This document shows positions 8,077-41,468 of a DNA stretch of 64,000 nt, piece after piece (within the stretch, counting starts at the first letter, position 1; every line of letters starts with the position of its first letter). The notes beneath the pieces are model-generated. The model worked only from the letters and a program-made list of their open reading frames with translations, made no database searches and was not told where the DNA came from. A program made the position numbers and the translations under genes. The stretch is from assembly GCA_037355855.1 (NCBI GenBank), contig CM074764.1, positions 3,472,001 to 3,536,000 on the forward strand, in the 5' to 3' direction. This DNA is from Pseudo-nitzschia pungens (Eukaryota > Bacillariophyta > Bacillariophyceae > Bacillariales > Bacillariaceae).

Positions 8077-8118
<42 letters not shown>

Positions 8119-16762: not shown

Positions 16763-17007
16763 GAATCGAATCCCACGAAATAAAAACAGAAACAACTCCG
16801 GAGAACCACAGGATTCCCGGGAACCAAAGAGAGAAACAACTCCCACCACCAAGATGGATGAGAGCAAAATCAGTTACAACACGAGTTATCGCGTGGAAAC
16901 TAAATTTAAAAGCAAAAACTGGAGCAACCACTTTTGCTCATTTCCACACTGAAATTAACAGATAACAGAATAAAGTAACTAAATTAATTAAATAAAACTG
17001 ATTAACC

Positions 17008-18405
17008 ATGGCGTCCAAAGGAACCAAACAGAAACCCTTCAACCTTACACGCAAGGATTGGCCAGAAGATGCCACCACTGTAAAAATGAGCATCGACTCC
17101 GAAAAGGGAGGGGTTGCGTTCAGCGACTACCTAAAAGTACTCACCGGCACTGAAAGACCGGAACTCTTTATCATCTGGAAAAGAGACTTTGACCAGAAAA
17201 TTGCTGGCAATGACAAACTCCAAGGAGACCAGAAACTGGACGTCCTCCAGAGGGTCCTCTCCAACGAGGCACTCTCTATTGTTCAAATGGCCCTAGGCCG
17301 GTCCTACTACGCCGAGCCAGGTCACAAAACACACAACAATAAACTGGTCCAAAAGAGGATCCAGAAAGTGGCACTAAACGACCTAACTACAGAAGCTCCC
17401 GCTGGCACGACCAAGGAGCCAGTCGAAGGGGACACCACCCAAACTACCGACAAAAACAAACCGACTGCTACGGCAAAATCGGATGAGGAAACAGAGCCCG
17501 AGGACCTCGGCGCTCCAATCCCCAAAAAGAAGGTACCCGATGCCCTCACAAAGTACTACCAATCAGAGGAGTACAAGAAGGATGTCATCGAGGAATGCAT
17601 GTATGCCCTCAAGCTGAAAGTCTTCGGCGATGACATGAACGGGAAACGCTCCTACATCCTCCTCCGCCGCTTTATGCGGGGGATACGAGTCGACATGAAA
17701 CATGGCATCAGAGCCTGGGCCAATCGAATGGCCGAACTCCAAAGCTATCTACCAGAATGTCTCTGGGAAAGTGGCGCCATCACAGGAATGGCACCCTCCA
17801 GCTTCACTCACGACGAGATGAAGGAAATTCTGGACACCAGCATGACCCACACCCAGAGGGACAAACTGGAACACATTGGATGGGACGTCTTTGCCCACTC
17901 CTTCAACACCACCATCGATAAACTCGAAAACTTGGAAACCACCATCCGAAACGAAGAAGAACTTCGCAAACGGATCACCGAACTGGAAAAACAAAATGGT
18001 GGAACCAAGAAGAACTCCAAGGCCACTTCTGGGGGAGGAAACAGCAAGTCTCCCAACAAAAAGAAGCGCCCAATGGAGAAGCAACTATGCAAAACTTGTG
18101 GCAAGACCCACGCCGGCAAATGCTGGAAACTAACCGGAGGACCACCCAAAAAGGGAAAATTTGACCGGGAAACCATCAATCTGCTCAAGGAGCATTTTGT
18201 GGCAAAAGAAGACTCGGACACCGAGCAACACTCCAAACCCCACTGGGGAAGGAACCTCTCCAACCACGAGTACTCCTATGTACTGGCCACGGCCCAAGCA
18301 GATCATGAAGTCTCTGACGACGAGATTGATATCTCGGACAGAGAACTCAAGGAGTACAGGAGAAAATACAAGAAAACCTTCAAAAAGAAGGGATCCCACA
18401 AATGA
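17008..18405 (+). CDS. Gypsy gag polyprotein
   Basis: 465 residues, starting MASKGTKQKPFNLTRKDW in good context (ACCATGG). It has a helical capsid-like region (residues 30-300), a Thr/Lys/Glu-rich linker inside it, a Ser/Gly/Lys-rich basic stretch near 335-350, and a short zinc-knuckle-like motif CKTCGKTHAGKCW (spacing C-x2-C-x3-H-x3-C, shorter than the usual CCHC). It ends at a TGA that is followed directly, in the same frame, by the protease ORF, so a gag-pro fusion would need only stop readthrough. Confidence 0.85.
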   Translation: MASKGTKQKPFNLTRKDWPEDATTVKMSIDSEKGGVAFSDYLKVLTGTERPELFIIWKRDFDQKIAGNDKLQGDQKLDVLQRVLSNEALSIVQMALGRSYYAEPGHKTHNNKLVQKRIQKVALNDLTTEAPAGTTKEPVEGDTTQTTDKNKPTATAKSDEETEPEDLGAPIPKKKVPDALTKYYQSEEYKKDVIEECMYALKLKVFGDDMNGKRSYILLRRFMRGIRVDMKHGIRAWANRMAELQSYLPECLWESGAITGMAPSSFTHDEMKEILDTSMTHTQRDKLEHIGWDVFAHSFNTTIDKLENLETTIRNEEELRKRITELEKQNGGTKKNSKATSGGGNSKSPNKKKRPMEKQLCKTCGKTHAGKCWKLTGGPPKKGKFDRETINLLKEHFVAKEDSDTEQHSKPHWGRNLSNHEYSYVLATAQADHEVSDDEIDISDRELKEYRRKYKKTFKKKGSHK

Positions 18406-19005
18406 ATGGCCGACGCCATCCACACCGGACCACGCATCATCAATCGATTTGCGGACGTCTGTGTGGAGGTGCTGGACCACAAGGGAAGGGGGAGGATGCT
18501 CCGGGGCCTACTGGACTCAGGATGCTCCAAGTCCATAATCCTAAAACACTTTGTCGACCGAAGTCAACTTATGAACCGGGACCACCGATCTGTTACCTAT
18601 AACACCTATGGGGGCAAATTTCGAACAAAGTCCGCGGCTTCAGTGGGACTAAGGCTGATAGAATTCTCCAACTCAAAGACCATCAAATGGACCTTCCAAG
18701 TGGATGAGTACCATCACCACGAGGAGGTACCCTACGACGTGATCATAGGATCCGACTTGATGGCGCAACTGGGACTGGATATTAAATACAGTTCCCAAAC
18801 GCTTACTTGGCAGGGTGACTCCATTCCCATGAAGAGAATGGGGGAGCTCTCCGACCCGGACAAATGTGAGGCAGTGTTCTTTGCCAACACCCAAAGTCCG
18901 ATCCTCCAACAGGAGGAAGAAAGGCAAGCCAAAATCCTGGATGCCGATTACTCCAAGGTAGACATAGATTCTATGGTCAATGACCTGGAGATCACAGACA
19001 CGTGA
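18406..19005 (+). CDS. Gypsy protease fragment
   Basis: 199 residues, MADAIHTGPRIINRFADVC then GLLDSGCSKSII, with the aspartic-protease D-S-G triad, and a second conserved block DVIIGSDLMAQLGLDI (the I-I-G-x-D-x-L segment of retropepsins). It is in the same frame as gag with only one TGA between. Downstream RT would normally follow but is deleted; the frame ends at TGA soon after EITDT. Confidence 0.85.
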   Translation: MADAIHTGPRIINRFADVCVEVLDHKGRGRMLRGLLDSGCSKSIILKHFVDRSQLMNRDHRSVTYNTYGGKFRTKSAASVGLRLIEFSNSKTIKWTFQVDEYHHHEEVPYDVIIGSDLMAQLGLDIKYSSQTLTWQGDSIPMKRMGELSDPDKCEAVFFANTQSPILQQEEERQAKILDADYSKVDIDSMVNDLEITDT

Positions 19006-19015
19006 GGACCTGAAC

Positions 19016-19380
19016 AGGACCACGGTCGTCAACAAGAAACAACCAAAATATTGGAAAAAGACCGTTCCAGGAACGGCGACAAAAATGGGATAAAACGGAG
19101 CAACGTCAATCCCAGTTGCAGTTAGCACCATCGGATGGAGCAGCAGCAACAACAGAGAGACCTAAGGACCTCGATAGGTCCATGGTTGACACAGTAACGA
19201 ACATCAGAAAGCCGTTCGAAGAACAACACAACCAAATAACCGTCCGATCCAGCGTGATGGCGGCAACAATAAGGAAGACCATTCCAGGAACAACGGCAAG
19301 AAACCGGGATAAAACGGAGCAACGTCAATCCCAGTCGCAGCTAGCACCATTAGATGGAGCAGCAGCAACAACTGACCACT
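19016..19380 (+). repeat. Repeat block replacing the RT core
   Basis: Two copies, about 217 bp apart, of a segment running GACCRTTCCAGGAAC to GATGGAGCAGCAGCAACAAC (near 19058-19160 and 19275-19375). Related CAGCAGCAACAGAG and AGGACCATGGTCGACAACA phrases are in the leader at 16215-16280. The duplication lies exactly where the RT fingers and palm should be. Confidence 0.65.
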
Positions 19381-19381
19381 C

Positions 19382-20862
19382 ATGCAAAAAGAAGTAGAAT
19401 ACCTAGGGCTTCTGTTAACAACAGAGGGCATTCAGCCCCAGCCAAAGAAGCTGGCGGCGATGAAACGCCTGGAACCCCCCAAGAACACCAAACAATTGAA
19501 GATGTTTCTTGGGATGGTAAATTTCTACAGGGATATGTGGAAGCGCCGCTCCCACATCCTGGCCCCCCTCAACAAGCTCGCGGGCAAGAAGGGGAAACTG
19601 AATTGGTACTGGGGCCCAGCAGAGCAGAAAGCTTTCATGGAGGCGAAGAGGATGCTCGCAGATGAAGCAAAACTCGCATTCCCGGATTTTACGAAACCAT
19701 TTCATCTCTACTCAGATGCCAGTGACCGGCAACTGGGAGCCACGGTATGCCAAGATGGCAAACCCCTTGGTTTCTACACGAGGAAACTGAATTCAGCGCA
19801 GCTCAACTACACTGTCGGGGAAAAAGAACTCCTGGGTATAGTGGAAGGCTTAAAAGCGTTCGAAGGAATCCTACGAGGACAAGATGTAACCATTCACACG
19901 GACCACCTGAACCTATTGTATCAGCAGATGCCCACCCAAAGAATGGTCCGATGGAGACTCCTCATGGAGGAGTTCCACCCGGTAGTCAAGCATGTGCTGG
20001 CAAAGAAAATGATGCAGCAGATGCGCTGTCCCGACGGGACATCACAGATGACCCAGCAGATACGGTGGAATGGCTACCACCAAATAAGCCCCTCACCTAC
20101 GCGGATGAGGAAGCGCACCTCCGGCAACTCCTATTCCCACTTGGAGAAGCACCGGAAGAATTCCAGGGCAATAGTGCATTCCCACTTGCTCCGGACATGA
20201 TTCAGTTCTACCAGCAGAAGGACACGAAAATCATGAATGCTTTGGAAAAAGACAAAGGCCTGACCACCAAACATGTGGAAGGTTTCAGTCTCATCCAGCA
20301 CAAAGAAGGCAAGATTCTGATTCCCGACAAGCTCAAACAACGAGTGATGGATTGGTACTATCACACAATGTTGGTGCACCTGGGGGAAAAGAGAATGGAA
20401 CAGAGCATACGCTCAGTCTTCAACCTGGAAAACAGGGACCTCCACGAGAAGGACCCTTTTGAGGAATTCACCACCAAGGCAGCATATGCTATCAGAAGCG
20501 CCATCCATACCACCCTGGGGTACTCCCCAGCGCAACTGGTGTTTGGTCGAGACATGTTCATGCCGGTGAACTTCCCAATGGATTGGGAAGCAATCCAAGC
20601 AAGGAAGCAGAAAAGCATCCACAAGAGCAACATCAGGGAGAACCAGAAGAGGATCCCCCATGTCTATAAAGAAGGAGACTATGTCACCCTGGAAAGGAAG
20701 GGCATTATTCCAAAACTATCCTTCCCACGGCAAGGACCTTACAAGGTGCTCAAGGCCCATGATAATGGAACTGTGACTATCGAAACTGCTCCCTCCGTAA
20801 CCGACCGGGTTAACATCAGGAGAGTGCACCCCTATTATTGCAGGGATAGCACTAAGTTGTAG
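19382..20862 (+). pseudogene. Remnant gypsy RT thumb, RNase H and integrase
   Basis: The first frame gives the RT thumb and connection (EVEYLGLLLTTEGIQP, LKMFLGMVNFYRDMWKRRSHILAPL) and RNase H (YSDASDRQLGATV, EKELLGIVEGLKAF, HTDHLNLLY). Near 20003, GTGCTGGC stands where GTGGCTGGC would be expected: loss of one G moves the reading to the frame AGKENDAADALSRRD. That frame has the integrase zinc-binding start (WYYHTMLVHLGEKRMEQSIR), then jumps straight to the post-catalytic region (YSPAQLVFGRDMFMPVNF) and the chromodomain-like tail, so the D-D-E core is absent. Confidence 0.85.
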
Positions 20863-22085: not shown

Positions 22086-25000
22086 TCATGGGGAATGATA
22101 AGGCTTGATACGTCTGAGATTGATTCGTTCAATGATATGCTCATTGCGAAGGAAAGATACAGTACCATTGGTGTGGACTTGAGTGATGGTAAATGGGCCA
22201 ATTGCTCTGGAACCAAGCGCATCAGTCTTGTAGTTGAAGATCATGATCTGATCACCAATGTTGTAGTCATGGTGTTTACGACGCTTGTTTTCTCTGAGCG
22301 CATTCTGATCAATAACAGATTGGCGTTTGGATCTGAGGAGTTTGATATCAGTGATGATAGGAATTGGAAGGAACATATCACGATGGAAGGCAATAGCTCC
22401 AGGTGAAACACCAAATGTTTTATGCACAGTGCATCTGACAGCAAATTGAGCAGAGGCAAAAACATTGTCAATGAGGTCAACAGCTTGTTGCAAATCCTGA
22501 GGAGGATTAGCATGAAGTTCAGTGCGCATGGCAGATTTCATAGTATCATGCACACGTTCCAAAACAGCATTCGCTTGAGGATTTTTGACTGTGGTTGGAA
22601 CAGGCTTGATGTCAAGGTTAATAAGGTGAGATTGAAAATCAACATTGAGGTATTCAGAACCTTGATCAAAAATGCATCTGCTGGGTTTTGGATAGCGAGA
22701 AAGCCATGCATCATTTAATGCATAGATGGACATTTTACCTGAGGGGTTCATCTGTGGAGCACGTTTGATTTCAAGAAGGTTAGTGCACATATCCATAATG
22801 GTGAAACCATTAAATTCAACATTACCAATATTTGGGATATTGACATTCCAAGGGCCAATGGTGTCAATTGCAATAGTTTCCCAAGGGATGGAGAGTTCTT
22901 CACGAGTTGCAAGATGCCCATAAGAAATGTGGGTATTTTTGTGGCGTTGACAAGCATCACAAGTCTTGCAATATTGAGCAACAGCATCCTTGAGGCCTGG
23001 AGAATAGATGAGCATGGAGATGGTTCTAGTCAAACGTTCAGCGCCTGCATGACCAAGGACATGATGATACCAGTTGATGGTGTCTTGGACAAGCGCTTTT
23101 GGAAGGACAATTTTGGTTTGGTTGTTTTTAGAGTAAACCTTGAGGTCAGTACCAGCGAAATCTTTGGTAGAATAATGGTTGGTGTTCTGGATGGAGGAAT
23201 CTGCTGCTTGAGCCTTGGCGAGAGCATCAAAACGCAGAGGATATGCAGGAAGATCTGCAGGGTAATTGATAAAAAGATCAGCAATGGAAAGATCAGAAGT
23301 GTCAACCTTGGAGATTGGCTGAATGTTTGGATCTTTGGAATCTTTGGAATCTTGGGAAGGAGAAACAGAAGGCAAACCCTGCTCCTCCTCCAAGGGAAGG
23401 CGCGAGAGAGCATCAGCTAGGATGTTGTCTTTGCCTTGGATGAACTTGAAAACAGGACTGAAGTCTTCAAGGAGCATGCGCCAGGTCATAATTCTGTTGG
23501 ATTGGAGATTTTGACGAGTGAGGTTTTCATGGTCAGTGTAAACAATAATAATTGCACCCCAAAGAATAGTCCGGTATTCTTTGAAGACTTCCACAATGCA
23601 AAGCATTTCTTTGTCAATGGTTGGATATTTGAGTTGAGTGGAAGTGAGTTTCCTGGAGAAGCATGCAACAATTTTACCATTTTGAATAATCACAGCACCA
23701 AGTTGATAATCGGAGGCATCAGTGTAGACATGATAAGGGAGATTAGGATCAGGATATGTGAGGAGAATTTCCTCAGCAATCATGGTTTTGGCAGCTTTGA
23801 AGGCAGCAAGCAATTCAGGAGTTGGCTTGACCGGTCCACGGGCCTTGCCAGAGAGGGCAGTGAGAGGAGCCAAAATCTCAGCGCGCTTGCGCCAATGAGC
23901 CCGATAGAAGTTGATCATGCCAATGAAGGAACGCAGATCAGTGGTGCTTTGTGGAAAAGCAAGTTTCAAAATGGGAGCAATCTTGTTGGGATTTGGGAGG
24001 ATGCCAGTGGTGGTGATGATATGTCCAAGCCAAGGAGCGCGTTGTTGGAACCAGTGGCATTTGGCAGGTTTAACAGAGAAGTTGTTGGCTTGCAGGATGG
24101 ACAAAACAGTGGAGACAGTTTTGCAGTGAGATTGAAAGTCAGGCGAGAAGATACCAATGTCATCAATATAGACTTCAACACTGTTGAGGTTGATAAAAAG
24201 GGATTCCATACAGCCTTGCGCCCAGCTTGGAGAGTTGAGGAAACCCATTGGAAGTCTGAGCAATCTGAATTTGCCAAAAGGAGTGACAAGCACACAGAGC
24301 CAAGTGGAAGGCTCATCCAATTTGAAGGTATGGAATTGCATGCTGACATCAATAAGAGTGACATATTTGAACCCACGGCGTCGATGGAAAATATCTTGGA
24401 TCTTGGGCAATGGATAGTGGAGCTTTTTAGTGACTTTGTTAAGCTCACGAAAATCAGAAATGATTCTGCAGGATCCATCTGGCTTTGGGACAACAAACGT
24501 TGGCATACCCCATTCAGTTGCATAACATCTTTCAAGAATTCCAAGTTTCACTTGGCGAAGGAGTTCAGTTTTAACAGCATCTTGTTGGTGGATCGGAATA
24601 CTGTAGGGTTGTTTGATATGATATGGTTTTGCACCCGGTTGGAGTTCAATGTGGAATTCTTTGTGGGGGAAAATTCCAAGTTCTCTGTGAGAGAGACCTT
24701 CAAACAGAGGATGGTGTTTGGAGAGAATCTGAAGCAACTGGGATTGTTGGTCAGTGGAAAGATGGGTTTGGTTGGAAACCAGTTCTTGCAAATCAGTTTT
24801 CTCATATTTGGTTGCACTATCAACGTAGGATTGAGAGGTTTGCGCGATGTAGGCTTCAGCAATGGAGTAGGGTTCGTTGCTGATAATCTTCTGAACCAAG
24901 GGTTGATTGGTGAAATAGGATCTTGGATGGAAGGGCATATCCTTATCAAACCAAGAAACAAGGGAGGCTTCAAAATCCATTTTGATGGCAAGCTTCTTCA

Positions 25001-26747
25001 TAGTGGCACGTCCGATGATCAAATCGTAGTACATGTTGTCAACCACAAAACAAGTCAAATGTTTGACGCGCCTGGAATAAGAGAGTTCTGGAAACATAAT
25101 GTCAGTAAGATAAACATATTCAGCGCATTTAAACTTGCCATTGGGAGTATCCAATCCAATTGGAGATTCAAGAACATGGATGGGAATGTTTGAGGGGATC
25201 TGCTTTTTGGAGATTAATTCAAACGTGGAGCCACTATCAAAGAGGGTCTTGAAATAGAACTTCCCGGAGATATCATTGATGGATTTGCATGTAGTCAATG
25301 TAGTGGGAGCCAAATCAGTGCAAGGTTTGGAAATCAGTGGTTCAAATGGTTCAGGATTTGGATCTGGTGGAGCTGGAGATAGAACAATGGAAGGATCATG
25401 TGGATCAGCAGGGACTGTGAACACTTCAGCAAGAGGTGTATCATCAGCAGTGGATGGTTGAATTGGGAAGCGTTGGAGATCCTGATGATAATAGGTGTCA
25501 TCAATTTCAGCGTTGACATGAAAGAGGTCAACCCAAACGTCTTCAGGTGGAGAAATAAAGGTGCAAACATGACCATCACCGGAAGAAGGTGGATTGCTGG
25601 GAGTTGTCACTGAAGAAGTGCGGGAGCTGTTTGCAGAGCTTGTTGCTGCATTTGCATCAGCTGAAGACCGATTGTTGTTGTTGGAAGGACCACGACGCTT
25701 GCCATTAGGATTGTCAATATTTTTGAAACATTGGCCCCAATTATGGTTGCTACCAGGATGAATAGGACATGGGTCTGTATCTTTAATTCTGTTGTTAGAA
25801 TTAGAGTTGGAACTGACGGCAGAATTCTGTGAAGAATTGTTGTTGTTTGAACGTCGAGCATTGTTGTTGTTATTGTTGTTGTTGCCAGAACGACGGTTGT
25901 TGTTGTTCCGATTTTTACCAGTTTGTCTGTTGGAGGACTTGTTGGAATTGTTGTTGCTGTTGTTGGTGTTCCTACGATTGGCCTTGGTGCAATAACGTTC
26001 CATTCTTGTGATAATATCAGCAAGAGTGTCATCATAGGGTGAATGATGATCTTCATAGGTGTCTTTCCAATCAGAAGGCATGGAATCATAGATCAGGCTT
26101 TTAAAATCATCCTCAGGAATGATGGCATCTGCAGCAGTGGTTGGAGCACCAGGTAACAAGGGAAGCACCACGTTGTTATGGTAAGTGACCAAGGAAACAA
26201 AGCTGGAAACAGTCATGGAAGTAGTCTTTTTGATCTGAGAAAGGAATCGTTTGTGGTTTCGATAGACGTCGTCGTTGTTAGAGAACTTGAACCGAATGAA
26301 GGCACGAACGTCGTCGTCAAAATGAGGCACCGTTTCAGTATGTCCAATGATGTTGGTTCTCCACCAAGTCTTATCAGAATAGTTTCGTAGAATGTCTGGG
26401 AACTTGGCGTATAGTTTTGGACCTGTTGTCCAACCCATGGCATGACGCGCTTCGGTGAATTCATAAATAGAATGAAGCAATTGTAAGAGAGTGGACGTTG
26501 TAGTGATAAAGGATACCTTTATCTTAGTTGTTTCAGTCTCAGTTTCAGTGGTTATAACACGTTTGTACTCAGCCTTTTCAAGTTCTTCTGGTTCGAAGTC
26601 GAACTTAAATGGAAGAGGTGTAACAGAAGACATGGTTGTTGCTGGGTATGTGTAGGTATATATGTGTTGGTATATATATATATATATAAATGAGAAGGTA
26701 TTGGTGGATACCTTAGACAACTTGTAGTTAAGGGAAGTAGTTGTCAA
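22086..26747 (-). CDS. Gypsy gag-pol polyprotein, intact
   Basis: 1,553 residues in one frame. The likely biological start is the Met of MSSVTPLPFKFDFEPEEL (26632) rather than the first Met. Order: capsid-like gag with Asn-rich tail and a zinc-finger-like CPIHPGSNHNWGQC; retropepsin (FKTLFDSGSTFELI); RT with LTYHVYT-preceding core including VEVYIDDIGIF as the YxDD box; RNase H (YTDASDYQLGAVI, DKEMLCIVEVFKEY, YTDHENL); integrase with HHCC finger (WYHHVLGHAG, CKTCDACQRHK) and D-D-E residues in AIDTIGPW, IFDQGSEYL and NPQANAVLERVH; then a C-terminal domain ending NLRRIKPYHSP. Gag and pol share one frame, so no frameshift is required. All hallmark residues are present. Confidence 0.93.
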   Translation of the reverse strand: MTTTSLNYKLSKVSTNTFSFIYIYIYQHIYTYTYPATTMSSVTPLPFKFDFEPEELEKAEYKRVITTETETETTKIKVSFITTTSTLLQLLHSIYEFTEARHAMGWTTGPKLYAKFPDILRNYSDKTWWRTNIIGHTETVPHFDDDVRAFIRFKFSNNDDVYRNHKRFLSQIKKTTSMTVSSFVSLVTYHNNVVLPLLPGAPTTAADAIIPEDDFKSLIYDSMPSDWKDTYEDHHSPYDDTLADIITRMERYCTKANRRNTNNSNNNSNKSSNRQTGKNRNNNNRRSGNNNNNNNNARRSNNNNSSQNSAVSSNSNSNNRIKDTDPCPIHPGSNHNWGQCFKNIDNPNGKRRGPSNNNNRSSADANAATSSANSSRTSSVTTPSNPPSSGDGHVCTFISPPEDVWVDLFHVNAEIDDTYYHQDLQRFPIQPSTADDTPLAEVFTVPADPHDPSIVLSPAPPDPNPEPFEPLISKPCTDLAPTTLTTCKSINDISGKFYFKTLFDSGSTFELISKKQIPSNIPIHVLESPIGLDTPNGKFKCAEYVYLTDIMFPELSYSRRVKHLTCFVVDNMYYDLIIGRATMKKLAIKMDFEASLVSWFDKDMPFHPRSYFTNQPLVQKIISNEPYSIAEAYIAQTSQSYVDSATKYEKTDLQELVSNQTHLSTDQQSQLLQILSKHHPLFEGLSHRELGIFPHKEFHIELQPGAKPYHIKQPYSIPIHQQDAVKTELLRQVKLGILERCYATEWGMPTFVVPKPDGSCRIISDFRELNKVTKKLHYPLPKIQDIFHRRRGFKYVTLIDVSMQFHTFKLDEPSTWLCVLVTPFGKFRLLRLPMGFLNSPSWAQGCMESLFINLNSVEVYIDDIGIFSPDFQSHCKTVSTVLSILQANNFSVKPAKCHWFQQRAPWLGHIITTTGILPNPNKIAPILKLAFPQSTTDLRSFIGMINFYRAHWRKRAEILAPLTALSGKARGPVKPTPELLAAFKAAKTMIAEEILLTYPDPNLPYHVYTDASDYQLGAVIIQNGKIVACFSRKLTSTQLKYPTIDKEMLCIVEVFKEYRTILWGAIIIVYTDHENLTRQNLQSNRIMTWRMLLEDFSPVFKFIQGKDNILADALSRLPLEEEQGLPSVSPSQDSKDSKDPNIQPISKVDTSDLSIADLFINYPADLPAYPLRFDALAKAQAADSSIQNTNHYSTKDFAGTDLKVYSKNNQTKIVLPKALVQDTINWYHHVLGHAGAERLTRTISMLIYSPGLKDAVAQYCKTCDACQRHKNTHISYGHLATREELSIPWETIAIDTIGPWNVNIPNIGNVEFNGFTIMDMCTNLLEIKRAPQMNPSGKMSIYALNDAWLSRYPKPSRCIFDQGSEYLNVDFQSHLINLDIKPVPTTVKNPQANAVLERVHDTMKSAMRTELHANPPQDLQQAVDLIDNVFASAQFAVRCTVHKTFGVSPGAIAFHRDMFLPIPIITDIKLLRSKRQSVIDQNALRENKRRKHHDYNIGDQIMIFNYKTDALGSRAIGPFTITQVHTNGTVSFLRNEHIIERINLRRIKPYHSP

Positions 26748-27445: not shown

Positions 27446-30400
27446 TCATTGGTTACTTACGGTACTTCTTGCGAATGATGGAATTTTGTGTTGGGAAGGA
27501 TTGAAAGCCACAGTCATTGCTCCTTCAGTTTTACCTCCATTGAATGAATAATGACAGGTGGCTTCGTACGATCTTTTATTAGGATTTTCAGTGATATGCG
27601 AATAACGGATTAGCACCGAAACAGGTTTTTTCGTCGTGATTAACCCCGATAGCTTTGTGCTCATTTCAGTTGCGAAAACACTGAAGTCTTTTGTTTGGAC
27701 GTCCAACATGTCCATCAACGAGACAATAGCAGCATCTCCGGCCATTTTTACCAACAGACCCCCATTACAAAACGAGGCGGAACTCTCTGATGCATCAAGA
27801 ACATACTCGAAGGTTGATGGGCTCAATCGAATAGCGCTTTTGTAGGTGAAACAATCACCTCCTGGATCTGTGAGAACTTCGCTTGAACGACCTTCGGTCT
27901 GAATTTCTGTTTGGGTTTGGGGAGACAAGTCCTCTCGCATCAGACCCCAGCGATAGTCCCGAGCAAGAACTTCGTTTTGTGTCTCGATATCTGCCGGGGG
28001 GCAGGCTTCAACACATGTCCCATCGTTTCTGACAACGACTGTCCCGCCCGAACGACGTCCATTGAATGTGGATGCTATTGACCCTCGATATGCACCTACA
28101 TGCTGCACAAAAATTGGTTCACCTTCGTCGATAGAAGAAATATCCGTACCATGCGATAAGATATCTCCAGCAAAGCAGAGCGGTCCAGCAATTTTGTCTT
28201 CGCCCGAACTCGGCAACCGTTCTCCATTCGGGCCGAGAATGGAATGAGTATAGCCCAAAAGTGCATTGCATAGGAGTTGGTCAGATCCAATATCTGCTAT
28301 TGCAATTTTAGTGCCCCTCATTGTCTCCTTATACAAGACCGTCCCCAACAGACCAACGGCATTGCCGACAAGAGCTTGGCCTGGTTCATACCAATACGTG
28401 AAGCCCTCTTCGCAATCAACTTCTTGCAAACTCGTATGCAACTCAGAGATGGACGGAAATTTCTCTTTCTCGTTGTAGGGAATTCCTAGCCCTCCTCCAA
28501 GATTGAGTATAGAAGGCTCGTGACGAGTGTGTCTCTTGATTTCAGAAGCCATTTCCTTGAGATGAGCCTTCGCTTGGACAAAAGGTTTGGTATGGTCCAT
28601 TTGCGTTCCAACATGAACGTGCAGGCCTGAAATGCGAATGTTCTTGATTCTTTTTAATGCGTCGACGACTTCTTCCGATGGAATCCCAAACTTGCTACTC
28701 AGGGCAGCGTGCGAGGTCAGATGCGTATTATCGTCTTCCTTTTTATACCTCATCTCAATTGATGGACTGATCCTCACGAGGACACGACCGCTGTTTCGGT
28801 CCTCAAAATTGAAACTAACCAACTCCTTGTCCAACTTGTTGAGAATTGATTTGGAATTAACGACAATATTTGTTCCTTGTCCAAGAAGTTTCACTGCAAG
28901 AGATACGTCTAGTGCAGGGCTGTGGTAAATCAATCTATCCGCGGGAAATCCCGATCGACGGGCTAGTAACAACTCTGATTCTGATGCACACTCGGCACAT
29001 GCACCTTCACGAGCCAAGACCTCAAGAATAGATGGAGAGGGATTTGCCTTGACTGGATACCAGATACGGTCTTGGCCACCTGCAAGTTGACTCCATTGTT
29101 CCAGATTTTTTTCGAGCTGTTCCTCGGAAACAATCCACACATTTGAGCCATAATTTTCCAATATCTTTTTCATATCAACTTCACTCGACCAACTCTCCAT
29201 ATTTGCGAGGTTTAGCGTTGAAGATGAATCTGTTTCCGCAATTGGAAAATTGCGATTTGGCAACATCTGAGGCGATGTCGACGAAGCTCTTTCGTAGCGA
29301 GGGATCTGGTTTGAAGATAGGTCACGATAGAAGTGTCCAAATTGTCGTGGGAGTATAGACTTGAGAATATCCCTGGATCCTGACGTAATCTTCGTTAATT
29401 CTTCAAATGAGACAAGGTCGCGATTGGCGAGTTGGGATTGAATAGTCAACTTGTGAGCACGCTCTTGATGAATAGTAGCGTGCATAAGAGTAGCTGAAGA
29501 ACCGGATCCATAGCCAAAAAGCATGATTTCGCGAAGGTCATCAACACTTTCCGATGACAATAAACTCATCAAATTGAGAAACAGCGATGCGGTGAAAGTA
29601 GCCCCAACATGTTCAGATGCGTTTCGACTCGCATCAAAATATCTTTTCCAGCTCTTCCGTGTATTTTTATCTGTCTTTCTCAGTAAGTTGCACTCAACCA
29701 TTTTCATAAACTGTGCGCAAGTTCCACCATGAAATACAACCGCATCCGACTTAAAAGTGTCTATTTCGTATGTTGCATTCATAGCTTCGATCGTATGTCG
29801 GAGTGAGTCGAAATAATGCTTCACACTCAATTTGGGATCAAAAAACGGACCAAGACTTGTTTTCCATCTAGGATTTGAGAAATCCTCTGTGTGTAGGAAT
29901 CGGGATGTGCGTTCTCTGTGGATTTCAATCCAAGGTTTTGGGCCCACAAGCATTGCAACAGCACCGGCACCTCGCCAAGAAACACTTTCCGAAAACACAG
30001 CAGTATCGGTCGCAACCACTATTGCATATCGACCTGTCTCTCTGCACCAGGCAATTGTGTTAAGTAATGCTGCAGTTCCGCCGTAACATGCATGAGTGTT
30101 ATCAACACCTTCTACATCAGTGTGATTAGCCGGAAAGAGACCCATAAGCTGCGATTTGATTGAAAGAGCTTGATCAATGTTACTCTCTGTACCGACCTCA
30201 ATACGACCGATAGAATATGGATCGGAAACATGATTTTCCAGAAGTCGAGATACTGCGTTAAGAGCAAGAGAGGTACTATCCTCCTGGCTATCCCAAACAC
30301 TATTCGATGCTTGTCCATCCGCCTTGGCGTCGATACCATTCGCCTCAAGAGCACTAGCACTGATTGCATGAGCAGGAAAATACGCTTCCATCGCAACAAT

Positions 30401-32305
30401 GCCGACTGCTGGGTCGGGTTGGTCATCATCGGAGCTGCTGGTCTGAACATAAGACTTCTCGTTGCTGCTTTCGGGAAATTTGCTATCGTGTTCAGAAGGA
30501 ACCTGAGGAAGCAAAGCACACCAATCGATCGGAATCCAGCATGAAAGTGAATGGCAATTAAGATCACAAATATCATTTTGACCCAACGTTACACAAATAT
30601 TAGATTTCTGCAAACGTACCTTATTGACACTGTTTGGAGTTTCTTGTTCTGGGGCTTGCTGCCAAGAATGGTTCAAAACCGCTAAGTCACGCGATTGAAA
30701 TAGATCGCTGTTGGTGGCTTTCTTCGCGATTTTCCATGCTTCCCTGTTGCAAGTTTCGGCGTCGTACTTCGTCTTGACTAAATCCAAAGTATCGCGGACA
30801 CCTGCTTCTGGATTTTTCGAGATAAATGATGCAAGACTTTTGGCATGAATCAAAGCCTCCTCACGATCAGCACATACGTGATTGACTATGCCTTGATCAA
30901 GCAAGTCAGTACTGTCCCAATGCGAATTTGTCAAATAAGCGTTCATTATTTCAGTTGGAGAAAAATATTTGTTTAGAAGGTCGCTCAGTTGGCCTGCTGG
31001 TGACATTCCTCGACTCAAATTTCCATACAAAACGTCTACATCGTCCGTTGCAATTCTGTAGTCGCACCATAGAGAAATAGGAAGGCCTCCACCCGTAACT
31101 TTCCCGTTCATTACGGCAATCACAGGGATTCCCAGTGATGTCAGTTCGACAAATCCCATGTATTGTCTCTTCATGATAGCTGCAACTTCATGAACTGGCT
31201 TCGTTGTCAACTCACGCATTCGGAAAGGATTCGCACCAAGATGAAAATTATCCAGCCCCGAGCAAAGAATAATTGCTTTAGAATCACGTTTGAGTCGCGG
31301 AATTAGCTCGAGAATAGATCTCGTCATTTCATCGGAAAAAGTGTTCCGGGATCGAAGATCTTTCATGGTGAGAATCGCTACACCATCATCGGTGATCTCG
31401 TATTCAAGTACCTTTCTATCCGATATCATTGGCGTCTCTGTTAGCCATTGACCGAGGACAGTCCCCATAGCTTCAGCATGCGTTGAGTCTTTGGGGAGCA
31501 CCTCCGACTTGACTGTGAGGACTGCATCCTTGTTTCGTTTCCATCTTCTGGTCAAAGTCTTCAGGTAAGCTTCAAGGTCTCCTCTCTCCATTACTTGGTC
31601 TACGAGAGCTTGTCTTTGTGCTTCTTCGGCCGAAATGGTTTCGCCGGTGAGGGAAAGTTATCGAACCGCTGCTTTCCCCATCCTCTCGACCAAACACCTT
31701 GAGACAATGCTTGGAATCATTCCCACTCGGACCTCGGGCAGTCCAAATGATGATTCATTTGTAGCAATGACAATATCTGCCATGGCTGGGAAAATCATTC
31801 CTCCTCCTCGAACTTCACCGTCGATCACCGCAACAAGAATTGCATTTGCGTTCTCCAGGACGATAGCAAGCTCAACGAATGCCTCGATTGAGCGGGAGAG
31901 ATACTCCGAGTTCCCAGACACAAGATCCAGCCCATGATTGAAGATTTTGCTATCTTCTTGGCGAATGATGACAACATCGGCCGACTCCACAGCATCCTTG
32001 ATATTACTGAAGTCATCGATGAATTTTGGAAGAGAGATGACGATCTCCTTCAGAGATTCTACCGATGATTTCGACATGAGACGCCGTCGAAGTTGCTTCT
32101 TCGATGCTCCAATCTTGTCAGTTTCGTCGCCACTCGAACCATGAAGTACAAGCGAGGTCGAATGTGACGTGACATGGCGTGACGAAGCGAGATTTGGTTT
32201 GACCTGATGGTAAGGAACGCGAACAAACGCGCCAACGGGGTTCAATCCACGAAGCTGCACTGTAAACGCTAGGACCAAAAAAAGAGTCCTCTGGAATAGC
32301 ATCAT
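27446..32305 (-). CDS. ECH-ECH-HMGS-PLP decarboxylase fusion, one in-frame TAA
   Basis: One frame from ATG 32305 to TGA 27446 (1,620 codons), broken only by TAA at 31658-31660. N-terminus: hydrophobic signal, then NPVGAFVRVP, a diatom-type G-A-F plastid motif. First ECH domain: VIDGEVRGGGMIFPAMADIVIA, FGLPEVRVGMIP, then GKAAVR-stop-LSLTGETISAEEA. Numbering next from Met 31591: second ECH domain 55-310 (MNGKVTGGGLPISLWCDYRIA, RGMSPAG); HMG-CoA-synthase domain 393-715 with Glu469 (EVGTES), Cys502 (THACYGGTA) and His621 (VVFHGG), matching the family Glu-Cys-His triad; group IV PLP decarboxylase 800-1200 with Lys848 (YPVKAN), HVHVGTQ, LNLGGGLGIPY, EPGQALVG and CFAGDIL; a hotdog-like tail (CNGGLLVKMAGDAAIVS). 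ECH/ECH/HMGS resembles PksH/PksI/PksG polyketide beta-branching enzymes; the decarboxylase resembles LysA or BtrK. Substrate unknown. Plastid location is inferred. Confidence 0.8.
30503..30619 (-). other. Likely in-frame 117-nt intron in the fused gene
   Basis: On the minus strand it starts GTACGT and ends TTTGCTTCCTCAG, is AT-richer than its surroundings, and is 39 codons with no stop. It lies in the linker between the second ECH domain and the HMGS domain, where the translated text (ICVTLGQNDICDLNCHS) looks unlike either domain. Splicing it out keeps the frame. Confidence 0.55.
31658..31660 (-). other. In-frame TAA inside the first ECH domain
   Basis: The 22 codons between this TAA and Met 31591 are in frame with both flanks and read LSLTGETISAEEAQRQALVDQV, the conserved crotonase L-T-G-x-x-I-S-A-x-E-A segment. 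The stop sits eight residues before the conserved I-S. One base change from a Tyr codon (TAT or TAC) would create it. Confidence 0.85.
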
Positions 32306-33793: not shown

Positions 33794-34988
33794 TAAGGTT
33801 GCATTTTTGGTATACGGTAAACCTTAAGGTTAACCTTACTCACTCTCGGGGAACTTTGAAAAGCGAACCATCAATGCGGAGTTTTTATTGTACACGTACA
33901 TATTATGGTTACCGTACGGTACACGTATAATACACGAACAATAAAGAATAGAGTATTCTTTCCGGGCTTTAATTTTTAGATGTGATCCCTAACGGAAATC
34001 GGGCTCACACGAACTAAATACGTTATTCAAATTCAATTGAATTTATACGCATTCGAAGAGTATATTTCCAGTCATTCTAGCGGTTTTACTCGTGTATTTA
34101 TTGTTTGATTGCGAGAAATGACGGTTTTCGTTGGTCGCGAATAAAATTGAATTTTGGACAGGTAACGACAACCACTCCACCGTAATCGTGGGGATTTCAA
34201 AAAGTGCACCGTCCGGTCTTCGCAGTGCAGCCTGTTTGTGCGAAATAAAAGCAATGGTCTAAACAAAAACTTGATACTAACGGAACAATTCTCGTACATG
34301 CGAGTACATAGCACACACGCGTGGTAGATCTACGGTACAGTTCGGTACGACATTGTTTGCATCTCACATCATCTCCGCCCGTTTTCGGCAACCGTTGTTG
34401 TCCCCGATCGATCGATACCGGTACCGATACAGATATCGATGACATCGATATCGTAACGCTCGTAGGTCCGTCGAGATTGTGATTGACTTTTTCCATCACC
34501 CGCACATTCATTCTGAGAAGCAAGCAGCCCCACCCACCCGGTAACCGCCGCACGTATAAATCCAAACCAACGAAAGAACATTCTACCGTGGCGGAGTATC
34601 TCGAATGCAATCATCTTGCATGACCGTATACCATACACATATTGCAACACAGCAACTCCCACCCACTCTCTGTTCGAATCCCGTAGCGTCGAGTTGAAAG
34701 AGGCCTTGGTGTTGTCTTGTCTGTCTCTCTCCCACTATTCTCGAGCAGACAGCGCGAAGCGGCGATAGAAGCATCGCATCGAATCGCATCGCATCGCATT
34801 GCATTGCGTCGAATCGATCGATCGATCGATACATACATAGATAGATAGATAGAAGGCTGCTCCTCTTTTTTATTGAGTCCGAGTCCAGCCCGTCTTTCGG
34901 TCTTGTTCCGCGCAAAGAAACAGAGACACACACACGCAGAAATACTTTTTGACCGGACCGATAGCAGCACCGGCATAACAGCAGCAAC
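33794..34988. other. Intergenic DNA upstream of the myosin gene
   Basis: No gene supported. Holds GGTAAACCTTAAGGTTAACC near 33825, GTACGGTACACG palindromic phrases near 33915, and microsatellites ATCGCATCGCATCGC, CGATCGATCGATCGAT and AGATAGATAGATAGAA between 34770 and 34855. This should contain the myosin promoter and 5' UTR, whose limits I cannot place. Confidence 0.45.
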
Positions 34989-37900
34989 ATGGAAGTCAAT
35001 CAACAGGTCTGGCTTCGCCGAGACTCCAGCCACTGGGGATGGGTTCCGGCCGTGATTGTGCGAAAAGAAGAACTTGGAGACGACATCGATCTAACCCTGG
35101 TGAACGACAGAAACTCCGTGGAAGCCAACAGCGGAGAACCCGATTATTTTGCGGACGAAGAAGACTTTGTGCAAGTCATTCGGGTGGACAAGGAACAATT
35201 GAAATCCGCCGATCACAATGACATCAAACTCAGAAATCTGTCCTCCACGTTTCTAGACGATCTCGGCAGCAGCAACAACAGCAACAACACCAACATTACC
35301 AACAAGAATTCGAGAATGATGGTGCGCGGAAGCGAAAGTCCAAGCCACGATGGGAGAAGCATTCCCGTTGGTGGGGTGGACGATCTGATCGGCCTGACCC
35401 ATCTCCACGAACCAGCCATTCTTCATGCCCTGAGGCTGAGATACGACAGCGACATCATCTACACCTCCACCGGACCCATTCTGATTGCAGTGAATCCCTT
35501 CAAACCCATGCCAACTCTGTATCGAAGCGAAATCATGGAGGAGTACCGATTGCAGGGAGAGAATGCCAAGAAGGCCAAGTCCGACACCACGAATGCCTCC
35601 CTCAAATCCTTCGACACACCTCGCAAGGGAGTTCGTCGCGCCGCCACCGAACAGGATACAAGAAGACTCTCTCCCCACGTGTACCAAACGGCCGATGATG
35701 CCTATCGGCAAATGTTGCACGGACTGGACAATGCCGAAATGATGGCAATGAAGAATAGAAGTGGAAATGGACATGGAAATGGACATGGACATGGAAATGG
35801 ACATGGACATGGAAATCCAAAAGCAGGACCCAAACGTGGAGAATCGCGCATCGAAGATTCTTCCCCGACGGATCAGTCGATTTTGGTCAGCGGAGAATCC
35901 GGAGCCGGAAAAACCGTCACCACCAAGATTGTTTTGGACTACTTTGCGATGCTTTCGAAGAAACGATCGGGTACGGATGGTGGTCGCAGAACCAGTGGTA
36001 GCAAGAGCTCACAGGACGTCTCCATCGAACAACAAGTGTTGCAATCGAATCCGATCCTCGAGGCATTTGGTAATGCACGAACGATCCGAAACGATAACTC
36101 CTCTCGATTCGGAAAATACATTGACATCTCCTTTACTTCCAAGGGAAAACTGATGGGTGCTTCTATCGAAACCTATCTGTTGGAAAAAGTCCGCCTCATC
36201 CATCCCGGGCCCGGAGAACGCAACTACCACGTTTTCTACCAATTCCTCAAGGCAGCCAATGCCTTGGATAGACAGGACTTCTTTTTGAACTCGAAAACAT
36301 GTCGAGACTTTAGGTTGCTTTCTGATTCCGGCACCTTTGATCGCCGGGACGGTGTCGATGATTGCGAGACTCACCACGAGATGTTAGAGGCAATGGTGAG
36401 TTGGTCTTTTTTGCTGTATTTTGTTGCATTGTGTTGCATTGTGTTGCATTTTGGTGTGTATTGTGTTCCACTGTGTTCCATCCATTGCGTCAGGGTCGTA
36501 GATTGAGATTCTCACGCGACTTTTTTTTTCTCTGGTCGACACGTGCTTTAGCAAACGATTGGATTCACGGAAGAAACAATCTACTCCCTCATGCGATTGG
36601 TCTCGGCCATTTTGTTTGCGGGCAACATGAGCTTCACGCCTAGCGACGACGGGGAATCGTGCAAACTCGACAAGACCAAGGCAGCCTTGGCCTGTGCCGC
36701 TCTTTTGGGTATCACGTATGACGGACTTGCCACTGCGCTGACAAAACGATCCATCAAGGCTGCCGGCGAGACGGTTATGAAATTGCTAACGATTGAAGAA
36801 TCCGGAAAGGCGTGTGAGGCGTTGATCAAGGCCGTGTACGGAGCGACTTTCGATTTTATCGTAGAGAAAGTGAACGCTAGCATCCAAGCAAAATCGGATG
36901 CGAGACGCAGTCTTGGCGGTTCCGATGAGCGAAAGCAAGCGGCATCCATCGGGGTATTGGATATTTTTGGATTCGAGACCTTCGAATACAACTCCTTCGA
37001 ACAGCTCTGTATCAACTACACCAACGAGGCCCTTCAACAACAATTCAATCGATACGTCTTCAAGTTGGAGCAGCAGGAGTACGAAAAGGAAGGTATCATG
37101 TGGAAATTTATTGAGTTCCCCGACAATCAGGACGTGTTGGATCTGATTGATCTGAAACACACCGGAATCATGGCTTTGCTAGACGAACAGTGCATGTTGC
37201 CAAAGAGCACCGACAACAAGTTCACACGTTATTTGTACGCTAGATGCGATCGTCATCCGCGATTCAGTGCGACTTCGGCCCAGCGCGTCGACTACGTCTT
37301 TTCGATCGAACACTACGCCGGATTGGTTGAATACAGCACCGAGGGATGGCTGGAAAAAAACAAGGATCAGCTACCCGCAGCGGCATCTGATTTGATCAAG
37401 AGTTCGGACTTCGAATTGCTCCTCGATATCAACCGCTTCATCAGGGCGGAAGACCGTGCCGGACGCGGCACCGTTGCGACCAAATCCGTCAGTTTCCAAT
37501 TCGCGAAGCAGCTTCGAACTCTTCGTTCGCGTATCGAAACCACCCGTCCTCATTACATTCGTTGTCTGAAACCAAACGATGAATTGTGTCCCGATTACTT
37601 TGAACCCAAGAATATCGTAGAGCAGCTGCGATGTGGTGGTGTGTTGGAGGCAGTGAGAGTGAGCCGCGCAGGTTATCCCACTCGATACCCACATGATGTG
37701 TTCTCGGCTCGGTATTACATCTTGGGCAACCGCAACGGCAATTCTCCCGCATCACCCGTGTTTTCACCCGGTACTAACTCATTGCAGGGAAGAAACGAGG
37801 ACCTCAGGAAACTAATTGCCAAGATTTCCTTGGATTTGTGGCAGATCGATCACGATATTCATCTCGCACAGCAAGAGCTCGAACGAAAGCGCCTAGAATC

Positions 37901-40900
37901 CCATCATTACTACGACGAGGTTGTCACCAAGCCACACCCTACCGCCATGGGAAACTTGTTGACTGGACAAAAGAAAACTTCCAACTTGCCCGCCAGTCAC
38001 AAGGATAAGAATTTGGTCGTTGAATCATCGGCAATGGCACCGGAATTTCACCGCAAGCAATTGCGCAAGACGCTAACGAATGCCCACAAAGCACCACCCG
38101 GAGGCAAAAAGGTCGCCATGAAGAACCACCGTGTCATACGGCCTGAAACGCGAGAAGATTTCTTGGCACTCGACTTTCCGTCCAGATGTGCTGTTGCCGG
38201 ACTGCAGCTTGGGCGAACCAAGGTCTTTTTGCGAAGGGAAGCCTTTGATCGTATCGAAGGTCTGCGGTCCGAGAAATTTTTCAATGCCGCTGCTGCCATC
38301 CAAAAGATTGTTCGAGCACGCCAGTGCCGATTGTGGTACGAATATATGCGCTACGCTGCCATCGTTATTCAATGTCATGCACGAATGCAGATTGCGAAGA
38401 GAAAGGTTTGGGACACCCGATTGCGAAAGGCTGCCACCACCATTCAGTGTGCATGGAGGGTGTTTGTCTCGCGAATGTATGTTTTCGAAATGCAACTGGC
38501 ACGTCGCACGGCTGCCGTGATCATTCAACGTCAGTGGAGGCACTACAAGAACGAACCTGTTGGACCAAGCGACGAATACGTCATCTATTGCATGACTCGA
38601 ATCCAGGCCATGTATCGTGGCAAGGTGGCCCGCATTCGATTCGCCTTTGAGCAACAGAAACGAGAGCGCGAGCAACAAATGCGTTTCGAAGAAGAGGAGC
38701 GACAGAGGCGGAGAGAGGAAGAAGAGCTATCCCGTCACCGACAGCGCGAAATCGAGGAGGAAGAACGAAGCAGACTACAGACACAAAGAGTGCTTTCACC
38801 TGTCAAGGAGGTCAATGAGCGGCAACTGGCTAACGGTACAAAGGGACGGGATATAGTCAACTACGAGAATGCTCAGCTCGGAGATTTGTTCCACGAAATT
38901 ACTGAAAATAACTGGGCAGTCGTCGAGAATATCTTGGACAAGCACCCAGACCTCGCCGAAGCACAAGATCCGAAGACCGGAGAACTCGCTTTGCACAAGA
39001 TTGCTCGCCAATCCAGTGCGTGGACCTTGCTGATTGACATGGTGCTTGTATTATATCCAAAGGCTTTGATTCACAGGGACAATATGGGGGCTCTTCCCAT
39101 TCACCATGCAGCTGCTCACGACAACCTCTCTGCGTTGGAAATTATCTACAGTGCCTACAAGGAAGGAATCAACGACACAGACAAGATGGGACGCCTGCCC
39201 ATTCACGTTGCTGCCAATTACGATGCCGTAGATGCCATCAAATTTCTGTTGTCGACGTCGCCCGAGGGCGCGTACACAATGGTCTACCGTCCCCCCCACA
39301 ACTCAGGTGGTGGACTGCCCCTTCACATCGCTTGCCGCAACCACGGTTCGATTGGGGTGATTACCGCGTTGTTGGCCGAGAACTTTGCGTCGGCTAAGCG
39401 CACCGATGAAAATGGCGACTTGCCACTTCACTTGCTGCTACGATGTGGTGAGGTCGTGGACCCCGTAGTCGTCAAGACATTGCTCACGTGCTTTTCTGGA
39501 GCCGTTTCGCGAACGGACATGAACGGTGACCTACCTCTTGCAATCGCTATCAAGCACCAGTGCACGGCGTCTGTGACAAATTCGATCTTGGTGCACTTTC
39601 CCGACGCCGCCGCCGTTCTGGATAGCGAAGGTCACAGCCCATTGCACCTGGCATTTAGCCATAATGCCGACGATAGAACACTCATGGGTCTATTGAATCA
39701 CGCACCCGTCCTCGCAACCCAAGTCGATAAGAAGACAGGTCTTCTTCCGATCCAGGTCGCTACGCAAAATGAGCATTCTCATTTCATTGTTCACAACTTG
39801 CTGAAACGCGACTTGCCTATAGACATGAAAGAAAAGGTAAGGGCCCAGCTCGTTCCTCACCATTACTCGTGGAACCACTTGGTGGCGAGCACGGAAGATT
39901 TGTATTACCAAGTTGTAACGAAGGTTCTTCAAGCTTGCACACAGCCTCAAGTGCTAGCTTTGGCACATATCGAAGGTCCGGATGGAAAGATCGCACTCGC
40001 AGCCGCCACTCCGGTGTGCAAGCACGAGATGCGAGTGATGCTTCGCCTATTCAATACTCTCGAGGTGGTCAACCAACGTCCGGCTTATACCAACCCTGTA
40101 AGCGATACGCAAATCTTCTACGCACTTCGATACGATCCACCTCCGCAAGCCAATAATGGTGCATTTACCGTGCTACACGAAGAAAAGAATGACGCGCATT
40201 CTGGTGACGATTACGTGGAAGATTTTGACGATCATACCATCATGTCGATGACATCGAAGATGAGCACTCGATCCGCCCTGACTACAAGGACGCAGCATAG
40301 CATAGACGAGAAGTTACGCCTGATCCGCAGAGAGAAAGGTCAACAAGTCATTGCCAAGCTCACATCGAAATCGGAAATTGTAGAACGAGAATTGAAGGTT
40401 CGAAAAGACTACCATTTGTCAAGACACTATGTTCCCGCTGTGATAAGTGTGCATCATACGGTCCAACACGCAGCCTATTCGGAAGCAATGGCTGAGCCAG
40501 GATACTGCATCACGATGGAAGGAGCTGATACAACTGCAGAGAATCTCATGCTTGACATGCGAAAGAACGGAAAGCAATTCCCACAGAAGGCCGTGAAACG
40601 CATCGGTATCTCGCTACTCCATCTTCACGAGCATGGACTCGTTCATGGTGATTTTGGCACCCACAACATTGGCAAATTTGGTAGTCGGTGGAAGATGTTG
40701 GGAGTTGGAGGAAGCATCCCTCTTGGCAGACCCACCGATCCATCCCGTGGTTTTTATCATCCGCCGGAAGCTATTCGGCTGGAACAAAGAAGAGGCAACA
40801 ATCCAATGGGGAAGAAGAGCTATAACGCGAGTGTTGTTTCCGTCCCTTCTCATCCGACCTATGATATTTGGGCATACGGAGTTGTCTTTTACGAAGGGAT

Positions 40901-41468
40901 TGCTGGGTTGCCACTTGGTCCCTACGCTTGTCGAGGAAAGCGTCCGATGAGCACAAGTGAAGTCTCGAAGATTGGTCTGTGGGATGAAAATAGTCTGCGC
41001 AAAGCATTGAGGCATATTCCCGACGACGACAATGGTATGGCGCGGGATTTGATTCGGTTTATGCTTCATCCAGATCCAAGCAAGAGAGCGAGCTCAATGA
41101 GGCAGGTACTTGAACATGCGTACTTCACTAACGCTCAGCCAGCGCCCTCTGCATCCGGAACCCAACAGCAAATGCCACAACAGTACCAAGCACAGGGCCA
41201 AGGCCAGCAATTCGCGAGTTTTGACGCCTTTCCCTCCGGGGAAAATGCTGCTCCCATGTCGTCCCACAATCCACAGCAGCCGATGGAGCCCCCCGGAGTC
41301 CAGAAAACGGCTTCCGGGGATTATAGCATCGAGAACCGGGAAAACGGTGTTCGTGGACGCAGAATGAGTAATGAATCATTGAAGAGCAGCAAGAGCTTTG
41401 GTGGCTTTCGCAAGCTCAAGAACACCATTCGTAACGGTATGAGTGCAAGTGGCAGGGAACAATTTTAG
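34989..41468 (+). CDS. Myosin with IQ motifs, ankyrin repeats and kinase-like tail
   Basis: Two exons (34989-36395 and 36552-41468), about 2,107 residues. It starts at ATG in context GCAACATGG. N-terminal SH3-like segment, then a motor head: P-loop GESGAGKT (about 301), switch I NDNSSRFGKY (about 366), switch II DIFGFETFEYNSFEQLCINY (about 605) and RPHYIRCLKPND (about 802), so ATP and actin binding look intact. A Gly/His/Asn/Met tract (GNGHGHGNGHGHG) is inserted before the P-loop. Five IQ motifs follow (about 1048-1172), for example AAIQKIVRARQCRLW, then an Arg/Glu coiled coil (1170-1200), ankyrin repeats (about 1238-1550; GALPIHHAAAHDNLSALEII) and a protein-kinase-like domain (about 1758-1998). 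The last has LVHGDFGTHNIG in place of HRDxxxxN and GVGG where DFG is expected, so it is probably a pseudokinase. Likely a cargo-binding or signalling motor; no tail of classical type. Confidence 0.9.
36396..36551 (+). other. Intron of the myosin gene, 156 nt
   Basis: Donor ATG|GTGAGT, acceptor TGCTTTAG|CAA, phase 0. Inside, TTGTGTTGCATTGTG-type repeats and a TCGTAGATTGAG stop interrupt the reading frame. Splicing joins HHEMLEAM to QTIGFTEETIYSLMRL, the expected myosin head sequence. Confidence 0.88.

Follow-up and report, generated by a model that had tools for sequence, protein, structure and literature searches.

A 64,000-nucleotide stretch of Pseudo-nitzschia pungens DNA (GenBank assembly GCA_037355855.1, contig CM074764.1, positions 3,472,001 to 3,536,000; hereafter the window), which is part of contig C7 of a 66.9-Mb genome in 28 contigs, carries a real, coding gene in which five enzyme domains lie in one frame. 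From N- to C-terminus, the frame specifies a presequence, crotonase 1, crotonase 2, HMG-CoA synthase (HMGS), a LysA-fold decarboxylase dependent on pyridoxal phosphate (PLP) and a hotdog domain. We propose tentatively, as a reading that could well be correct, that this nuclear gene encodes a probably plastid-targeted enzyme for thioesters bound to an acyl carrier protein (ACP), in which a eukaryotic beta-branching cassette is joined to an amino-acid decarboxylase.

As a carrier-dependent enzyme, the fusion would work in the manner of the bacterial HCS (beta-branching) cassettes: its HMGS domain would attach an acetyl unit at the beta-keto position of an acyl thioester, the PksH-like crotonase 1 would dehydrate the adduct and crotonase 2 would decarboxylate it, so that the acyl group ends up beta-methylated and alpha,beta-unsaturated. 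The LysA-fold domain would decarboxylate an amino acid that is probably not diaminopimelate and is probably carried or conjugated, and the hotdog domain would release the product thioester, dehydrate it or add to it. In this reading eukaryotes would have built the cassette from an HMGS of eukaryotic type and a PksH-like crotonase, with the decarboxylase-hotdog half coming from bacteria. Beta-branching is suggested by the recurrence of the ECH-ECH-HMGS order in other predicted proteins, by carrier domains on two relatives (P0005 and P0011), by the conserved Glu, Cys and His of the HMGS domain, by the sister position of crotonase 1 to PksH and by a match of crotonase 2 to CurF ECH2; a separate mevalonate-type HMGS in the genome and the gene neighborhoods at three of 49 bacterial loci point the same way.

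The fusion frame is coding far beyond chance, because only one stop falls within its 1,619 codons, whereas the five alternative frames hold 49, 61, 74, 85 and 90. Pfam recognizes ECH_1 twice, HMG_CoA_synt_N and HMG_CoA_synt_C, Orn_Arg_deC_N and Orn_DAP_Arg_deC, and the matches behind the stop are strong (E 4.8e-37 for the N-terminal HMGS family, 2.5e-34 for the decarboxylase and 6.8e-22 for crotonase 2). These segment-wise profile matches bear out the domain order and minus-strand coordinates given by an earlier reading made from the letters alone (the sequence-only reading), and the residues that it had named are in place, namely the HMGS Glu, Cys and His (conserved in all seven fusion HMGS domains), the decarboxylase lysine in YPVKAN and the A-F of a G-A-F import motif, here VGA-FVR. 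Its claim of a single polypeptide stands insofar as the five domains share one frame and falls short insofar as that frame is interrupted by an in-frame TAA, which it had missed (Table 1). Family searches of the same genome yielded no second locus of this kind.

Table 1. Positions of the fusion gene and its parts in the window. Residue numbers are those of the protein with the TAA read through.
Feature	Position	Strand	Remarks
Whole fusion gene	27449..32305	-	one 1,619-codon frame, interrupted once by an internal TAA; terminal stop codon at 27446-27448
N-terminal presequence	32141..32305	-	hydrophobic segment followed by VGA-FVR and a basic region rich in S/T
Crotonase domain 1, ECH1/PksH-like	31451..32023	-	residues 95-285; Pfam PF00378; sister to PksH in tree, 97/90
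In-frame TAA, codon 216, within crotonase 1	31658..31660	-	
Crotonase domain 2	30641..31432	-	residues 292-555; own clade; CurF ECH2 is second-best PDB match
HMGS domain	29276..30421	-	residues 629-1010; Glu707, Cys740, His859
LysA-fold PLP decarboxylase domain	27986..29197	-	residues 1037-1440; Lys1086 and Cys1377 retained; several residues of the LysA motifs differ
C-terminal hotdog domain	27476..27913	-	about residues 1465-1610

The search for relatives of the ECH-ECH-HMGS half covered 5.8 billion proteins. As query, the 1,381-residue frame that follows the stop gave three matches (7,995 scored), and a profile of four members gave seven (7,996 scored); three of the latter, of the FadJ/FadB type (P0008 to P0010), were dropped on their Pfam sets, and P0002 and P0003 came from the 1,381-residue query and are absent from the profile listing. 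Six predicted relatives (P0002 to P0007) share the crotonase-HMGS core, and five (P0003, P0004, P0005, P0006 and P0007) have the ECH-ECH-HMGS order, P0002 beginning in crotonase 2; the contigs of P0002 and P0004 are shorter than 3 kb, and these two proteins may be incomplete. In P0005, ECH1 is immediately preceded by a carrier domain (PF00550, 27 bits, cut-off 20.8). Ahead of this carrier is a match to the end of a ketoreductase (KR) domain (Pfam KR, E 0.055; NCBIfam polyketide synthase [PKS], E 0.01), and because these matches are weak and the stretch has no PDB match at E 0.01, the KR domain is only suggestive. P0003 and P0006, which are AT-rich in letter make-up, carry an acyltransferase domain (PF01553) ahead of ECH-ECH-HMGS and represent another cassette architecture. 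Viral contigs were scanned for a possible viral origin of the AT-rich members P0003, P0006 and P0007, and the one match was a crotonase stretch of 90 residues (L146) at 29% identity. A single scan of prokaryotic genomes with P0001 as query, sensitive to close relatives only, showed no genome with the fusion. Residues about 590-844 of P0002, behind its HMGS, contain several hydrophobic stretches with no Pfam match and may be a membrane domain.

In the HMGS tree (IQ-TREE, 19 rows, with PksG and prokaryotic HMGS rows taken from plasmid records), the seven fusion HMGS domains group together (100/99), and their sister group consists of three eukaryotic mevalonate-type HMGS (100/100); the fusions stand beside these and not within them, and away from three other prokaryotic HMGS. 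The sequence-only reading had linked the fusion to PksG and had taken clustering with ordinary mevalonate HMGS as an argument against itself; the link to PksG fails by descent, the fusions being placed beside eukaryotic HMGS, and the clustering is found only in the weak form of a sister group. That interpretation is supported in part. The labels PksG, PksH and PksI rest on annotation and neighbors in the plasmid records, except for three unannotated records (L107, L122 and L123) labeled in the present analysis, and a Natrinema HMGS, a "PksG family protein" in its record, was placed among the prokaryotic HMGS by its neighbors; the long branches of this tree meet at the Natrinema row. Long branches are flagged in all three trees used here (HMGS, crotonase and decarboxylase-hotdog). 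The genome holds a separate mevalonate-type HMGS on contig C12, which matches plant HMGS at E 1e-119, compared with 4e-43 for the window HMGS. The C12 domain is itself fused in frame to a FabF-like ketosynthase (L017, G000:C12:392000-401900, 5042-8881). A fusion of this kind is on record in a 2009 paper (PMC2705460), as a ketosynthase-HMGS protein of Phytophthora sojae and of two diatoms, Thalassiosira pseudonana and Phaeodactylum tricornutum.

The crotonase tree comprises 32 rows, among them 11 generic crotonases from BLAST lists; the crotonases of the same genome (L134-L139) were left out, as was P0002, which lacks most of the crotonase part and stands only in the HMGS tree. The six crotonase 1 rows group together (100/100) on a long stem (1.61) as sister to six PksH, and this pair joins two hydratases (100/96), the gene for one of which is flanked by genes for carboxyl transferase and acetyl/propionyl/methylcrotonyl-CoA carboxylase. 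The six crotonase 2 rows also group together (100/100), on a long branch of their own. Among the PDB matches of crotonase 2 the best is 3pea (E 1.3e-12) and the next is CurF ECH2 (E 2.9e-11).

The second half of the fusion has different kin. Its decarboxylase domain has LysA structures as best fold matches, and in an alignment to these the EPGR, RPALY-type, CESGD and YN.R stretches of LysA, which we take to contribute to substrate recognition, read EPGQ, CNALL, CFAGD and FNGR. The C-terminal domain is predicted to be a hotdog fold, as the sequence-only reading had guessed, with a long central helix around which an antiparallel sheet is wrapped (AlphaFold2 pLDDT 85.4) and with hotdog matches in Foldseek and VIA-align; SAV606 heads the VIA-align list and does not head that of Foldseek, where other thioesterases lead. 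The two domains together form a separate, mainly bacterial two-domain family (Planctomycetota, Bacteroidota, Cyanobacteria and others): 117 of 120 listed matches cover at least 82% of decarboxylase and hotdog together, the nearest at 41-50% identity, and 59 of the 120 were aligned. A eukaryotic transcript, P0011, encodes an apparent presequence, the decarboxylase and the hotdog, with a carrier domain at the C-terminus. Its decarboxylase-hotdog is the sister of the one in the window (SH-aLRT 99) in a quick tree whose outgroup, a decarboxylase encoded on contig C11, has a very long branch. The bacterial genes (L024-L072), for which no named function was found, occur in many phyla, mostly without a common neighborhood. 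Among 577 neighboring frames at 49 of 79 loci, checked by Pfam for 19 neighbors and with seeds for ketosynthase (KS), PKS, ACP, HMGS, PksI, adenylation and nonribosomal peptide synthetase (NRPS) proteins, no conserved operon is shared. An adenylation, carrier or NRPS-type protein lies near the gene at three of the 49 loci (L061, L064 and L068), and one further seed match, at L042, is weak (E 2.8e-6).

Consistent with the earlier statement that the window contains no KS or ACP, no ketosynthase (PF00109) or carrier (PF00550) match was found on contig C7 in six-frame, exon-wise searches of the genome. The same searches gave seven KS matches at five places, one of them the HMGS-KS gene, six carrier matches and one acyltransferase match, and no match to PS-DH (PKS-type dehydratase). 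Judged by eye, the carrier places comprise four adenylation-type proteins and two frames of 129 and 145 residues, which may be small ACPs. Because no multimodular PKS was found, the carrier, if the cassette is carrier-bound, would most likely be a stand-alone ACP. A single-frame adenylation-carrier-reductase protein was also seen by eye on contig C6 (L118 1333-4860, minus strand, G000:C6).

The presequence has a best 11-residue hydropathy of 2.4, and the 54 residues from the F of its motif onward include 10 K+R, 3 D+E and 13 S+T. VGA-FVR presumably marks a plastid presequence of the bipartite type, and the fusion enzyme is probably plastid-targeted.

Several observations weigh against carrier-bound beta-branching. 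The six PksG form a clade of their own (100/100) apart from the fusion HMGS domains, and the Asn of the HMGS GN-Y motif, which is kept in the aligned rows of three mevalonate-type HMGS, one MvaS and five PksG, is Gly or Ala in all seven fusions, so the acceptor or the activity may differ; we assume a functional role for this Asn in mevalonate HMGS. PksH ranks only 19th among the PDB matches of crotonase 1, the best plasmid matches of both crotonases are generic hydratases, and crotonase 2 stands apart from PksI in the best tree; a tree in which it is placed with three PksI is worse by 0.55 log units (approximately unbiased test, p 0.47), which allows such a link without establishing it. None of the relatives retrieved by the protein searches has all five domains; one of these searches, that for the decarboxylase-hotdog half, reached proteins of up to about 1,070 residues and was blind above that length. 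The neighborhoods at 45 or 46 of the 49 bacterial decarboxylase-hotdog loci are unrelated, with no match to the KS, small-ACP, HMGS or PksI seeds. The C11 decarboxylase also reads CFAGD, so this change is not unique to the fusion. No multimodular PKS was seen in the genome at the sensitivity used, and the present copy of the gene has an in-frame stop.

It is possible, if unlikely, that the ECH-ECH-HMGS half acts instead on CoA esters, converting acetyl-CoA and acetoacetyl-CoA through HMG-CoA and 3-methylglutaconyl-CoA to the branched C5 compound 3-methylcrotonyl-CoA, with no PKS. Myxobacteria have an analogous route, the alternative route to isovaleryl-CoA. The sister relationship of the fusion HMGS to mevalonate-type HMGS, the grouping of crotonase 1 and PksH with two hydratases, one of them encoded beside carboxylase genes, and the lack of a multimodular PKS among the genome matches would all fit this route. 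However, a carrier domain directly precedes the cassette in P0005 and another is attached to P0011, the sister of the decarboxylase half, and the GN-Y Asn is changed in every fusion HMGS.

It is less probable that the gene was recently inactivated, the TAA ending translation in crotonase 1 so that this lineage would no longer produce the protein. The stop falls in a conserved stretch, and the window HMGS is the most changed of its set at columns invariant in the other members (9/83, compared with 2 to 8 of 75 to 81 in other rows), with a branch of 0.87 against 0.39 and 0.29 for its sisters. However, there is no further stop in the 1,619 codons, the catalytic residues are retained, and the crotonases are no more changed at such columns than those of the relatives (crotonase 1, 4/35, others 0-4; crotonase 2, 6/62, others 2-9), so that the window row is not broadly decayed. 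An intron at the TAA is unlikely because the TGE motif just behind it is kept in all five relatives that have crotonase 1 and because the few GT-AG pairs around it, judged by eye, would not keep the frame. A base error or a heterozygous null allele would explain the TAA just as well as a recent null mutation.

That the crotonase-HMGS and decarboxylase-hotdog halves are two or more genes, transcribed apart and sharing a frame by chance, is very improbable. The halves do have different relatives and occur apart elsewhere (P0003 to P0007; P0011), and a Met is present in the linker, but both lie within a stretch of 1,403 codons that is free of stops. Hardly credible is an ordinary diaminopimelate decarboxylase of the lysine pathway: TIGR01048 (lysA) is the best NCBIfam match, LysA structures are the best folds and the C11 relative likewise has neither the CESGD nor the EPGR letters, but the score of 206.6 bits lies under the cut-off of 297.9, the four motif stretches are replaced, and three other sites in the genome (C2, C8 and C11) match PF02784. 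The domain falls outside the equivalog by score and is probably not a typical LysA. The C11 protein (L023 3017-4765, G000:C11), which has the same fold, has CFAGD and EFGQ at the CESGD and EPGR sites and matches no PDB chain at E 1e-40; these motifs do not support its being the LysA of this genome.

Other frames in the window were assigned by eye. Directly downstream of the fusion gene, a 1,553-residue frame (22086-26747, minus strand) resembles a retrotransposon polyprotein with reverse transcriptase and integrase-like stretches, and frames at 17002-20859 (plus strand) resemble pieces of a second retrotransposon. On the 5' side, 34965-41465 (plus strand) appears to be a myosin-like gene (GESGAGKT).

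Searches of open-access papers turned up neither the fusion architecture nor eukaryotic HMGS beta-branching genes. A 2019 review on marine polyethers recognizes no molecular evidence for beta-branching in eukaryotes (PMC6835853), and a 2025 review mentions beta-alkylation without the term "HMG" (PMC12194139). The interest of the single-protein ECH-ECH-HMGS family, one member of which has a carrier domain, is that it could perform beta-branching in eukaryotes and offers concrete genes to test and to seek. If confirmed, beta-branching would have arisen also from a eukaryotic-type HMGS and not only via PksG, and would be linked in the plastid to an uncharacterized, mainly bacterial decarboxylase-hotdog family. 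A bolder conjecture, which we consider quite unlikely, is that marine eukaryotes evolved their own cassette apart from PksG, from a duplicated eukaryotic HMGS and two crotonases combined with a carrier domain (P0005), an acyltransferase domain (P0003, P0006) or, in the present genome, a bacterial decarboxylase-hotdog unit. Here a single protein would produce both the branched enoyl thioester and the decarboxylated amino acid, and a SAV606-like addition by its hotdog domain would join them in the plastid to a branched beta-amino acyl compound.

Compared with known systems, the fusion shares with the bacterial HCS cassette (PksG-PksH-PksI or CurD-CurE-CurF) the same three enzyme types, the HMGS triad, a crotonase 1 that is sister to PksH and, in one relative, an adjoining carrier domain; unlike that cassette, it is a single eukaryotic polypeptide in ECH-ECH-HMGS order, its HMGS is nearest to eukaryotic HMGS, its crotonase 2 may or may not be of the PksI type, no PKS was found in its genome and contig C7 gave no KS or ACP match. 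Eukaryotic mevalonate HMGS, represented by the C12 HMGS-KS gene, is the nearest group and has the same Glu, Cys and His, whereas the fusion HMGS forms its own clade, has lost the GN-Y Asn in 7/7 members and is attached to crotonases, in a genome that already has a mevalonate-type enzyme. With LysA and BtrK, the latter named L-glutamyl-[BtrI acyl-carrier protein] decarboxylase in PDB entry 7ru7, the fusion decarboxylase has in common the fold-III PLP decarboxylase structure, the PLP lysine and the Cys, but it scores below the LysA cut-off, has changed motif residues and carries a C-terminal hotdog. SAV606/CmiS1-type dual-function thioesterases compare with that hotdog by fold only, at 11% identity and with no sequence-level match. 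The bacterial two-domain family has the same decarboxylase-hotdog pair, encoded in bacteria by single genes and in the fusion placed behind ECH-ECH-HMGS and a presequence.

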